From Mesorhizobium sp. B4-1-3 (lineage in GTDB: Bacteria; Pseudomonadota; Alphaproteobacteria; Rhizobiales; Rhizobiaceae): DNA of 64,000 nt. Of this stretch, positions 13,961-24,056 are shown one piece after another; within the stretch, counting starts at the first letter, position 1; every line of letters starts with the position of its first letter. The DNA lies in NCBI RefSeq assembly GCF_006439355.1, contig NZ_VFTG01000020.1:1-64000 (forward strand), given 5' to 3'. Both the position numbers and the translations under genes were made by a program. The notes beneath the pieces were generated by a model. The model was not told where the DNA came from. It did not search any database and saw nothing but the letters and a program-made list of their open reading frames with translations.

Positions 13961-15262
13961 ATGAGCGAGGGACACTCGACCTATACGCCCAAGACCGGTA
14001 TCGAGCGCTGGTTCGACGCCCGCATGCCGTTGCCGCGGCTGATCTATGACAGTTTCGTCGCCTATCCGGTGCCGCGCAACCTGAACTACATGTGGACGTT
14101 CGGCGGCATCCTGTCGATCATGCTGGTCTCGCAGATCCTGACCGGCATCGTGCTGGCGATGCACTACACGTCCGACACCAATCTCGCCTTCGATTCGGTC
14201 GAGAAGATCATGCGCGACGTGAATTCGGGATGGCTGTTGCGCTATCTCCATTCCAACGGCGCCTCGTTCTTCTTCGTCGCCGTCTACATCCACATCTTCC
14301 GCGGCCTGTTTTATGGTTCCTACAAGGCGCCGCGCGAGCTGCTGTGGATCCTAGGCTGCATCATCTACCTGCTGATGATGGCCACCGGCTTCATGGGCTA
14401 TGTGCTGCCTTGGGGGCAGATGAGCTTCTGGGGCGCCACCGTCATCACCGGCTTCTTCAGCGCCATCCCGCTGGTCGGCAACTGGATCCAGCAGCTTTTG
14501 CTCGGCGGCTTCGCCGTCGACGACCCGACACTGAACCGCTTCTTCGCGCTGCATTACCTGCTGCCGTTCATGATCGCCGGCGTTGTCGTCCTGCACATCT
14601 GGGCGTTGCATGTCGTGGGCCAGTCGAATCCGACCGGCATCGAGGTCAAGTCGAAGACCGACACCGTCGCCTTCACGCCCTATGCGACCATCAAGGACGC
14701 GTTCGGCATGATCGTGTTCCTGTTCGTCTTCGCCTATTTCGTCTTCTATCTGCCGAACTATCTCGGCCACCCGGACAACTACACGGTCGCCAATCCGCTG
14801 AAGACGCCGGCCCATATCGTTCCGGAATGGTACTTCCTGCCGTTCTACGCGATCCTGCGCGCCATCACCTTCAACATCGGCCCGATCAACTCCAAGCTCG
14901 GCGGCGTGCTGTGCATGTTCGGCGCTATCGCCATGCTGTTCCTGGTGCCGTGGCTCGACACCTCCAAGGTCCGCTCGGCGGTCTACCGTCCGTGGTACAA
15001 GCTGTTCTTCTGGCTGTTCGTCGCCGACGCCATCCTGCTCGGATGGCTGGGCTCGCAGCCGGCGGAAGGCTCTTACGTCTTCATGGCGCAGATGGCGACT
15101 TTGTTCTACTTCGCCTTCTTCCTGATCATCATGCCGGTGCTCGGCCTGATCGAGACGCCGCGGAGGCTGCCGAACTCGATCACCGAGGCGGTGCTGGAAA
15201 AGAACAAGGGCGGCAGCGGACATCCGGCAGGCGCGACCGCCGCGCCGGAAACCAAAGGCTGA
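13961..15262 (+). CDS. petB: Cytochrome b of the bc1 complex
   Basis: A 433-residue polytopic membrane protein carrying the two b haems and both quinone sites of the bc1 complex. Visible features: haem-ligand histidine regions [13 protein letters not shown] and [10 protein letters not shown], the hallmark PEWY in [12 protein letters not shown], and eight or so hydrophobic helices. The ATG at 13961 is preceded by CAGGGGA. The open frame further upstream only runs through the end of petA and is not used. It is centrally placed in the operon, followed 21 bases later by petC. Confidence 0.97.
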
Positions 15263-21487: not shown

Positions 21488-21834
21488 GGCATTTCCTTTC
21501 GCGTGTTATGGAGCGCTTGCGGCAAGCACGAAGCCAACCGTAAACGTCGAAAGCCGTCGCGGCCTTGCACGACCTGTCCGATGCGTTTGGCGATCCAAAT
21601 GCGTCTGGGGATCATGCGAGGCCTGGGCGGCCTTCCTCCGCGTTGCCTCCAAGGGTGTCTACGCGGATGGCGGCTCTATAGCGGAAGGCGGGCAAGGGTG
21701 CAAGCGGTTGGGCTGAAAGGCCTGCAGGGTGGTTCCGGTGCCGAGCATAAACCGGAAATCCCGTTTGCGACAAATGTAGGATCGGGCGGTTCCCGAACGT
21801 CCTGCGGCGCGTGACCAGATCCGTGGGGACCACT
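21488..21834. other. Divergent region between rplY and glutathione S-transferase
   Basis: 347 bases without a supportable gene. It contains a small hairpin GCTTGCGGCAAGC near 21513 and otherwise no clear motif. Confidence 0.4.
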
Positions 21835-22479
21835 ATGAAACTCCTGTTCAGCCGCAATCCCAATCCTCGCCTCGCTGTCGCGACGGCGCGCTATCTCAAA
21901 GCGGAGATCGCGTTCGAGTTCGCATCGCCGATGGCGCCGGGGCAGGCCGAGCGTTACCGCGCGCTCAATCCCAATCTGACCTTGCCGATATTGGTCGGCG
22001 CGGGATGGACCCTGTGGGAGGCCGACGCGATCGCCTGCCGGCTTTCGCGCGAGACGCGTTCGGATTTCTGGCACGGCGGGGACGACGAGCCGGACATGAT
22101 CCGTTGGATCAGCTGGGGCAAGGAACGCTTCGCCTTCGCTTGCGACATGGTGCATTTCGAGCGCGGCACCAAGCAGCGCTATGGCCTGGGTCCGATCGAT
22201 CAGGCGCTGGTCGAGGAAGGGCTGAGGCAGTTCCATGGAGCCGCGGCGGTCCTTGAGCCTGAGCTTTCCGCGCGGGAATGGCTGGTCGGCAATTCGATCT
22301 CCTATGCGGATTTCCGCATGGCGACGTTCCTGCCGTTCAACGACGTCGCCGGATTGCCGCTCGACGACTATCCCTCGGTCCGCCGCTGGTATGGCCGGCT
22401 GGAAGCGATCGATGCCTGGCGCGACCCGTTCCAGGGGTTGGAGGCGCCGCCGCTGCCGCCGGTGCAGATCGAGGCATGA
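21835..22479 (+). CDS. Glutathione S-transferase family protein
   Basis: 214 residues with an N-terminal thioredoxin-like half (MKLLFSRNPNPRLAVATARYL, then NLTLPIL and the WEADAIACRLS SNAIL/TRAIL-like turn) and an all-helical C-terminal half with SARE WLVGNSISYADFRMATF. This is the general GST fold; whether it uses glutathione and on what is not visible. Start at the ATG 21835 with GTGGGG upstream. Confidence 0.85.
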   Translation: MKLLFSRNPNPRLAVATARYLKAEIAFEFASPMAPGQAERYRALNPNLTLPILVGAGWTLWEADAIACRLSRETRSDFWHGGDDEPDMIRWISWGKERFAFACDMVHFERGTKQRYGLGPIDQALVEEGLRQFHGAAAVLEPELSAREWLVGNSISYADFRMATFLPFNDVAGLPLDDYPSVRRWYGRLEAIDAWRDPFQGLEAPPLPPVQIEA

Positions 22480-22505
22480 CCGCAGCTTTTGCGCGATTCC
22501 GGACG

Positions 22506-22611
22506 CTAGAGCAATTCCAGGAAAAGTGTGAGCGGTTTTCCGTCCGGAATTGCGCTAAATCAAAGAGATAGGGCGTTCGCCGTTTCCATGAAACGGTGAA
22601 ACGCATTAGGC
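22506..22611. repeat. RIME-like composite element A4
   Basis: Reverse complement of A3 with few changes: CTAGAGCAATTCCAGGAAAA, CCGGAATTGC, then GCGTTCGCCGTTTCC and CGGTGAAACGCATTAG. Its right edge CATTAG contains the stop codon of the MarR gene (22606-22608, minus strand). Confidence 0.85.
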
Positions 22612-23076
22612 GTCGTCGTTCGCTTGGCCGCCGTTCAGCGCATCGCGCAATGTCTGGATTTGCCGGTTCAAGACATCGAGTTCAGCCAATTTCATGCCTG
22701 AGCGTTCGATCAGCGTCTCGTTCAGGCAGCTGCACTGGACGAGCAGGGCTCGTCCGCTGGGGGTCAGGTCGACCTGCACCTGGCGCTCGTCGGTCCGGCT
22801 GCGCTGCCGGGTGACAAGGCCAGCCTGCTCCATTCGCTTCACCAGCGGCGTGATGGTGCTCGATTCCAAGGCGAGCCGATGCGCGATGCTGCCAACCGAC
22901 ATGCCGTCCGCCTCTCCCAGCGCGTTGAGCACGAGATATTGCGGATAGGTGATGCCCATCTCGTCCAGCATCGGCTTGTAGGCGCGGTTGATCGCCATCG
23001 AGGTGGCATAGAGCGTGAAGCAGAGCTGATTATCCAACGGGAGAGGCACTGCGCATTCCTTTTGCCGACTGAGCAT
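22606..23076 (-). CDS. MarR-family regulator of the OhrR type
   Basis: 156 residues with a winged helix and the OhrR peroxide-sensing segment [16 protein letters not shown], where Cys19 corresponds to the reactive cysteine of OhrR. It should repress its targets until oxidised. The start at 23076 keeps both operator palindromes upstream; longer frames would run through them. It is divergent from a haloperoxidase-like hydrolase, the likely target; the classic partner ohr is not in this window. Confidence 0.85.
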
Positions 23077-23099
23077 CTGGTGTGTACCACGAAAAACGA

Positions 23100-23164
23100 T
23101 ATCGCGATACATATTTTCATGGACAAGGCTTCCAGTCTCCGTTACCAAATTATTTATCGCGATA
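23100..23164. promoter_or_regulatory. Paired operator-like palindromes TATCGCGATA
   Basis: Two perfect copies of the 10-base palindrome at 23100-23109 and 23155-23164, 55 bases apart, in the 122-base region between the OhrR-type gene and the hydrolase. A degraded third copy (TTGCGGTAT) follows near 23172. Symmetry and position suggest MarR binding sites. Confidence 0.7.
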
Positions 23165-23198
23165 TTGTTTATTGCGGTATCAACCAAAGGAGATTGAG

Positions 23199-24056
23199 AT
23201 GACCTCGCAAACCAAGCCGGGCTCGGGCAGCGACACGATCACCACCAAGGACGGAACGCAGATCTTCTATAAGGATTGGGGGACGGGCCAGCCGATCGTC
23301 TTCCATCATGGCTGGCCGCTGAGCAGCGACGACTGGGACGCCCAGATGCTGTTCTTCCTGGCCCAAGGCTACCGCGTCATCGCGCATGACCGGCGCGGCC
23401 ATGGCCGTTCCAGCCAGACCGACATCGGCAATGAGATGGACACCTATGCCGCCGACGTGGCGGCGCTCGCCGCGCATCTCGACCTCAAGGACGCCATCCA
23501 TGTCGGTCATTCGACGGGTGGCGGCGAGGTGGCGCGCTATGTCGCGCAATATGGCGGCGCAGGCCGCGTCGCCAAGGCCGTACTGATCGGTGCGGTGCCG
23601 CCGATCATGGTGAAGACGCCGGCAAATCCAGGTGGTCTGCCGATCGAGGTGTTCGACGATTTCCGGGCGGCGCTGTCCGCCAACCGCGCCCAGTTCTTCC
23701 ACGACGTGCCGGCCGGACCGTTCTACGGCTTCAACCGCCCGGGCGCGCAGGTTTCCGAAGGCGTCATCGACAATTGGTGGCGCCAGGGCATGATGGGCGG
23801 CGCCAAGGCGCATTACGACTGTATCAAGGCCTTCTCGGAAACGGACTTCACCGAAGACCTGAAAACAATCGACGTGCCGGTCCTGGTCATGCATGGCGAC
23901 GAAGACCAGATCGTGCCGATCGCCGACTCCGCGCTGCTTGCTATCAAGCTGCTCAAGAAGGGCGAGCTCAAGGTCTACAAGGGCTTTCCGCACGGCATGG
24001 CGACGACCCATGCAGACGTCATCAACGCGGACCTGCTGGCCTTCTTCAAGGCCTGA
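23199..24056 (+). CDS. Alpha/beta hydrolase, non-heme haloperoxidase type
   Basis: 285 residues with the haloperoxidase/arylesterase branch of the alpha/beta fold. Nucleophile Ser105 in GHSTGG, acid Asp236 in GDEDQIVP, base His265 in FPHGM; oxyanion region FHHGWPLS. In this family perhydrolase activity and halide oxidation are side reactions of an esterase. ATG preceded by AAAGGAGA. It is read divergently from the OhrR-type regulator, which implies induction by organic peroxide; inferred. Confidence 0.9.

Follow-up and report, generated by a model that had tools for sequence, protein, structure and literature searches.

Organisation of the locus

Within the window, a 64,000-nucleotide stretch of the Mesorhizobium sp. 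B4-1-3 genome, a regulator gene (P0001; 22606–23076, minus strand; 156 amino acids from an ATG at 23076), assigned here to the EstR/SydR type of the OhrR family (MarR), diverges from a gene (P0002; 23199–24056, plus strand; 285 amino acids) for a predicted alpha/beta hydrolase of the cofactor-free chloroperoxidase/perhydrolase/arylesterase type. Between them lie two exact copies of the palindrome TATCGCGATA, at 23100–23109 on the regulator side and 23155–23164 on the hydrolase side, 55 bp apart start-to-start, just as the original prediction had described. That description of the operators missed two weaker boxes, each 15 bp outward of its core: TACCACGAAA at 23085–23094 on the regulator side (7/10 matches when read outward) and TATTGCGGTA at 23170–23179 on the hydrolase side (8/10 matches).

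A putative −35 element of the hydrolase promoter, TGGACA (23120–23125, plus strand), was assigned by its position, which, measured from the core, is close to where the mapped estC −35 lies in a by-eye comparison with the Agrobacterium estR–estC locus (L150), and its GACA is conserved in the promoter alignment; a Shine–Dalgarno sequence for the hydrolase, AAAGGAG, is found at 23186–23192 (plus strand). For the regulator, an alternative GTG start at 23049 (22606–23049, minus strand; 147 amino acids) has a better-placed Shine–Dalgarno sequence than the ATG, with AAAGGA (the complement of 23057–23062) 7 nt before the GTG, and the TCCTTT/TTCCTT box at this position is kept in the Mesorhizobium relatives aligned; the GTG may be the true start, and residue numbers would then be nine lower than those of the 156-residue form used here. 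Downstream of the regulator gene is a glutathione S-transferase-like gene (21811–22479, plus strand), and between the two a dispersed inverted-repeat element (22487–22559) that begins GAGCAATTCCAGGAAAAGTG; a 20-mer within it (22509–22528) has 89 genome copies at one mismatch or fewer (control, 0), one of which adjoins the genome's ohrR.

The regulator and its published relatives

The best solved relative of P0001 is Xanthomonas campestris OhrR (PDB accession: 2pfb; E = 4.8e-34), and residues Cys19, Tyr33 (+14) and Tyr44 (+25) align with the sensing residues of OhrR, EstR and SydR, in keeping with the Cys-based sensor first proposed for this gene. The second cysteine, Cys117 (+98), occupies the position of the second cysteine in EstR and SydR, the spacing being that of EstR Cys16/Cys114; X. 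campestris OhrR and the genome's own OhrR have a cysteine seven alignment columns further on. P0001 is 53% identical to EstR and 53% to SydR, with Cys/Tyr/Tyr, Ser73 and Cys117 common to all three. The NCBIfam OhrR name was rejected for P0001, which scores 125 against a cut-off of 200, below it as is the genome's own OhrR (134). The OhrR family likeness of the original prediction thus stands; from these comparisons and the published operator, however, the protein is best placed in the EstR/SydR class and not with OhrR proper.

EstR of Agrobacterium tumefaciens represses its own gene and the divergent estC and is released by cumene hydroperoxide via Cys16, induction having needed 1 mM of the compound; DNase I footprints cover two sites, OI (−18 to +16) and OII (−46 to −82), containing GTTATCGCGATAAC and AATATCGCGATAAG, and organic hydroperoxide resistance goes up slightly on loss of estC and down on its overexpression (PMC5201249, in excerpt). 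SydR of Sinorhizobium meliloti binds two perfect TATCGCGATA copies between sydR and SMa2023 in gel shifts that are abolished by NruI cutting of both cores, and loses activity when C16 is oxidised, with NaOCl as the best inducer, the target rising 137-fold with NaOCl and twofold with peroxides (PMC11633110, in excerpt). Both operators were found again in deposited plasmids (L150, L151): estR–estC of Agrobacterium fabrum C58 pAt (Atu5211–Atu5212) has, like the window's locus, a divergent arrangement with two TATCGCGATA cores, there 53 bp apart, and 15-bp outer boxes, and sydR–SMa2023 of S. meliloti pSymA has two perfect cores in its divergent promoter, likewise 53 bp apart. The targets are unlike the hydrolase of the window, being the esterase EstC in the first case, where the neighbouring genes differ too, and in the second SMa2023, a putative periplasmic lipase (PMC11633110) that is EstC-like by tblastn.

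A quick tree of 106 regulators (the 110 rows of the survey below, less eight left out, plus four references; SH-aLRT support, without bootstrap) placed P0001 in a clade with EstR and SydR. Nearly all operator-bearing rows (64/65, EstR and SydR included) fall in one branch of 66 (SH-aLRT 95), together with two rows without an operator (L096 and L112), the operator-bearing L068 lying outside, the tree being weak at many forks, with 45 of its 103 inner branches drawn open and extra weight from near-copies. On it the operator label requires four changes and the partner label eight. Serine at the Ser73 column is found in 64/65 operator rows and in 0/29 canonical ohr rows, where G, N or A stands in all 29; as a specificity residue it was rejected as not sufficient, since seven rows without the operator carry it as well (L063, L064, L067, L096, L112, L115 and L128), and it may be a clade mark only. 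Five of these (L063, L064, L067, L115 and L128) form a separate OhrR-like branch without TATCGCGATA, two members of which adjoin chloroperoxidase-type genes. A regulator from a Phenylobacterium metagenome-assembled genome (L103, near 1023–1445), with two exact cores and an EstC-like partner, has Gly where the sensing cysteine would stand and Thr at the site of the second, so that sensing through those cysteines is impossible there, which does not sit easily with reading the class as purely cysteine-based.

Conservation of the core palindrome

The count of TATCGCGATA across the window is by itself unremarkable: three places at one mismatch or fewer against 1.27 expected, a number reached by 12 of 100 shuffles. 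Scanning the 6.13-Mb genome for the 10-mer, as had been suggested at the outset, gave eight exact places (control pattern, 0), and 162 at one mismatch or fewer (control, 68), among which distant targets may lie. Six of the eight lie outside the locus and look coding, because each reads Tyr-Arg-Asp in a locally open frame, leaving the two locus cores as the only exact copies in the genome that look intergenic.

Stronger evidence for the core comes from comparison with relatives. In all, 110 loci were gathered, comprising the window, the 29 best matches from 151 family genomes (56 of which had a match at E ≤ 1e-30; loci capped at 30) and the best 80 of at least 593 relatives; both sets were selected for resemblance to P0001 or to its alignment, the alignment for the relatives' search having been picked by identity and not by operator, and two loci without upstream sequence left 108 usable. 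Among these best-matching loci, an exact core was found within 200 nt upstream of 56/67 regulators with a cysteine at the Cys117 position, as against 3/41 others, and a core at one mismatch or fewer upstream of 62/67 as against 5/41, the five Cys117-type regulators without one being L096, L116, L134, L135 and L141. Two control stretches, one following the regulator gene and one within it, gave 0/67 and 0/41; none of 59 other palindromes of the same composition occurred upstream of the 67, and among all 1024 ten-base palindromes the runner-up reached 3/67. These locus counts are not independent, because twelve loci (L009, L041, L070–L078 and L081) are close copies, with regulators 86–95% identical to P0001. 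Further plasmid loci had one core in Variovorax paradoxus (L164), two in Rhizobium tumorigenes (L165) and one in Paracoccus aminovorans (L166), at one mismatch or fewer; a fourth (L167) starts at its record's start, so only three had upstream sequence.

In the aligned promoters of the chloroperoxidase-type hydrolases the two cores are kept along with the outer boxes and GACA, though not without exceptions: a single mismatch is present in the regulator-side core of L071 and of L085 and in each core of L072, and two in the regulator-side core of L082.

A proposed composite operator with a 15-bp step

Cores could be paired in 62 of 69 operator-bearing loci (the 67 surveyed plus those of EstR and SydR), 43 of which were left after removal of regulators at least 85% identical. 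In this reduced set a second box of at least 6/10 matches lies 15 bp outward of the core, toward the gene, on the target (hydrolase) side in 35/43 and on the regulator side in 27/43, whereas 29 other offsets gave maxima of 4 and 6 of 43, respectively; the mean match observed at 15 bp was never reached in 2000 shuffles of the flanks.

The published EstR footprints were mapped by hand onto the C58 sequence (L150; estC ATG at 14160, +1 at 14126), where OI corresponds to 14108–14141 and OII to 14044–14080. Core plus outer box occupy 14118–14142 and 14050–14074, so that the OII footprint spans both boxes and that of OI both except one base; a core with a copy 15 bp outward thus fits footprints of 34–37 bp, and such a composite operator would account for protection exceeding a single palindrome.

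Canonical OhrR–ohr systems (X. campestris, S. meliloti, A. tumefaciens and the genome's own C29 locus) resemble the window's locus in fold, sensing Cys and Tyr pair, but have an operator of the CAATT-N-AATTG type, unlike TATCGCGATA. The best match to TACAATT-N-AATTGTA in 23077–23198 is 8/14, and 25/28 canonical ohr loci reach 9 to 12. As a group, these 28 loci show the 15-bp step too: next to the best TACAATT-N-AATTGTA-like site, a neighbouring site lies most often at that distance (28 counts over both sides; elsewhere at most 12), and adjacent OhrR motifs have been described (PMC3107159, in excerpt). Occurring in EstR/SydR-type and canonical loci alike, the 15-bp step looks like a family trait that was kept while the letters of the operator changed. 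An operator form intermediate between CAATT-N-AATTG and ATCGCGAT, namely CGATT-N-AATCG, is present at five OhrR–ohr loci (L116, L121, L124, L140 and L142).

The hydrolase and other divergent partners

P0002 matches chloroperoxidase L (PDB accession: 1a88; E = 6.9e-134), chloroperoxidase F (1a8s; 1.6e-121) and an arylesterase (1va4; 2.3e-87), which upholds the haloperoxidase-like neighbour of the original prediction. It has, in common with those enzymes, a GHSTGG serine motif (GxSxG) with Ser105, and His265, Asp236 being by family convention what we take to be the catalytic acid. These matches place it with the cofactor-free chloroperoxidases, perhydrolases and esterases of the CPO-L/CPO-F kind, its activity being predicted.

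By tblastn, the divergent partners at the 67 operator-bearing loci, themselves among the best-matching ones, are ohr in 24, an EstC-like hydrolase in 22, a chloroperoxidase-type hydrolase in 19 and none of these in two, and the survey thus indicates that the same switch is joined to at least three enzyme types. Duplicated operators between a regulator of this kind and a chloroperoxidase-type gene accordingly recur: the 19 loci include ten of the 11 named Mesorhizobium ones (all but L099, where the partner is EstC-like), the rest being the window and eight others. In the tree, 14 of the 15 rows of this type form one branch (SH-aLRT 90), L117 standing apart; a chloroperoxidase-type partner without the operator is found at L064, L128 and L134. 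By eye, a twin-arginine-like N-terminus is present in the hydrolases of L042, L043, L079, L082 and L083, and no such leader was seen in those of the window or the ten Mesorhizobium loci. At L044, where the operator-bearing regulator lacks a partner of any of the three kinds, the open reading frame picked automatically on its upstream side encodes 166 amino acids, membrane-like and with no Pfam match, possibly a fourth kind of target.

A probable redox switch and its alternatives

Taken together, the locus is best read as a redox switch of the EstR/SydR type, for which we estimate a probability of about 87%. By analogy with the published relatives, dimers of the reduced regulator would sit on the two composite operators, each a TATCGCGATA core with its weaker copy 15 bp outward, and so cover the divergent promoters and repress both regulator and hydrolase. 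An organic hydroperoxide or hypochlorite would oxidise the N-terminal Cys19, which would then form a disulphide with Cys117′ of the partner subunit and release the dimers, hydrolase and regulator being made until reduction restored repression. That P0001 acts in this way on the hydrolase, and the part the enzyme plays, are inferred, and the inducer at this locus is uncertain because EstR needed 1 mM cumene hydroperoxide and SydR responded best to NaOCl. Such a switch appears real and well conserved, and its target undescribed for the class, since the literature searched, where subscription papers are sparse, yielded no account of a chloroperoxidase target for an EstR/SydR-class regulator.

The pairing as such is already on record in S. 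meliloti, where the OhrR-like SMc01945 adjoins the chloroperoxidase gene SMc01944 (cpo), cited as encoding a secreted peroxidase (Barloy-Hubler 2004, as cited in PMC3107159; also a reference title in PMC3557214) and called a heme-chloroperoxidase in a review (PMC8226930), all three sources being in excerpt. A pair so alike in kind raises the possibility that the window's locus is simply its orthologue. Its likely counterpart among the genomes surveyed is L156 of G302, probably S. meliloti or a near relative (98% identity over 1401 bases of pSymA). The hydrolase and regulator of L156 are, however, 57% and 48% identical to those of the window, the hydrolase has a twin-arginine-like leader, and neither this promoter nor that of the similar L064, from the same genus group, has TATCGCGATA at one mismatch or fewer; the L064 regulator lacks the Cys117-position cysteine and stands on another branch of the tree. 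Given leader, regulator identity and lack of a core, orthology was judged unlikely. On pSymA itself (L151:23869–24356), a chloroperoxidase homologue some 5 kb away from sydR aligns with P0002 as three pieces in three frames and may therefore be broken.

A reading slightly less probable still makes P0001 an ordinary OhrR that governs resistance to organic peroxides by way of ohr, and the hydrolase a bystander. OhrR is the best named match of P0001, and 24 of the 67 operator-bearing relatives adjoin ohr, so that the original claim of a target other than ohr holds at this locus and not for the operator at large, ohr too often being under TATCGCGATA. P0001, however, has the hydrolase and not ohr as its divergent neighbour. 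A separate ohr–ohrR pair (C29, L010) is present elsewhere in the genome, with an Ohr above the cut-off of NCBIfam TIGR03561 and an OhrR 43% identical to P0001; no other exact TATCGCGATA in the genome looks intergenic, and both cores remain recognisable across the aligned hydrolase-bearing promoters. Many MarR proteins sense small ligands and the neighbouring gene encodes a hydrolase, but that P0001 responds to such a ligand (the hydrolase's own ester or phenolic substrate, for instance) and not to an oxidant seems just as improbable, with Cys19, Tyr33 and Tyr44 kept as in OhrR, EstR and SydR. The EstR authors, in the excerpted text, also conclude that its inducers must carry a hydroperoxide group (PMC5201249).

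On the EstR/SydR-type reading, a chloroperoxidase-type enzyme not yet characterised comes under an oxidant switch whose operator is known. A search for TATCGCGATA cores ahead of OhrR-like genes, in many cases accompanied by an outer copy at 15 bp, would be a simple rule for locating more such switches and what they control; what specialists may find new is the composite operator, together with the spread over three enzymes. A more speculative extension, to which we give little credence, is a feed-forward loop in which the perhydrolase/haloperoxidase would make a peracid or hypohalite, the best kind of oxidant for the class to judge by SydR and NaOCl, so that the switch latched on, and, more broadly, a single sensor–operator cassette with 15-bp composite operators fitted to Ohr, EstC-like and chloroperoxidase enzymes. 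In Burkholderia cenocepacia, a non-heme chloroperoxidase rises 38-fold with H2O2 (PMC2830190, in excerpt).
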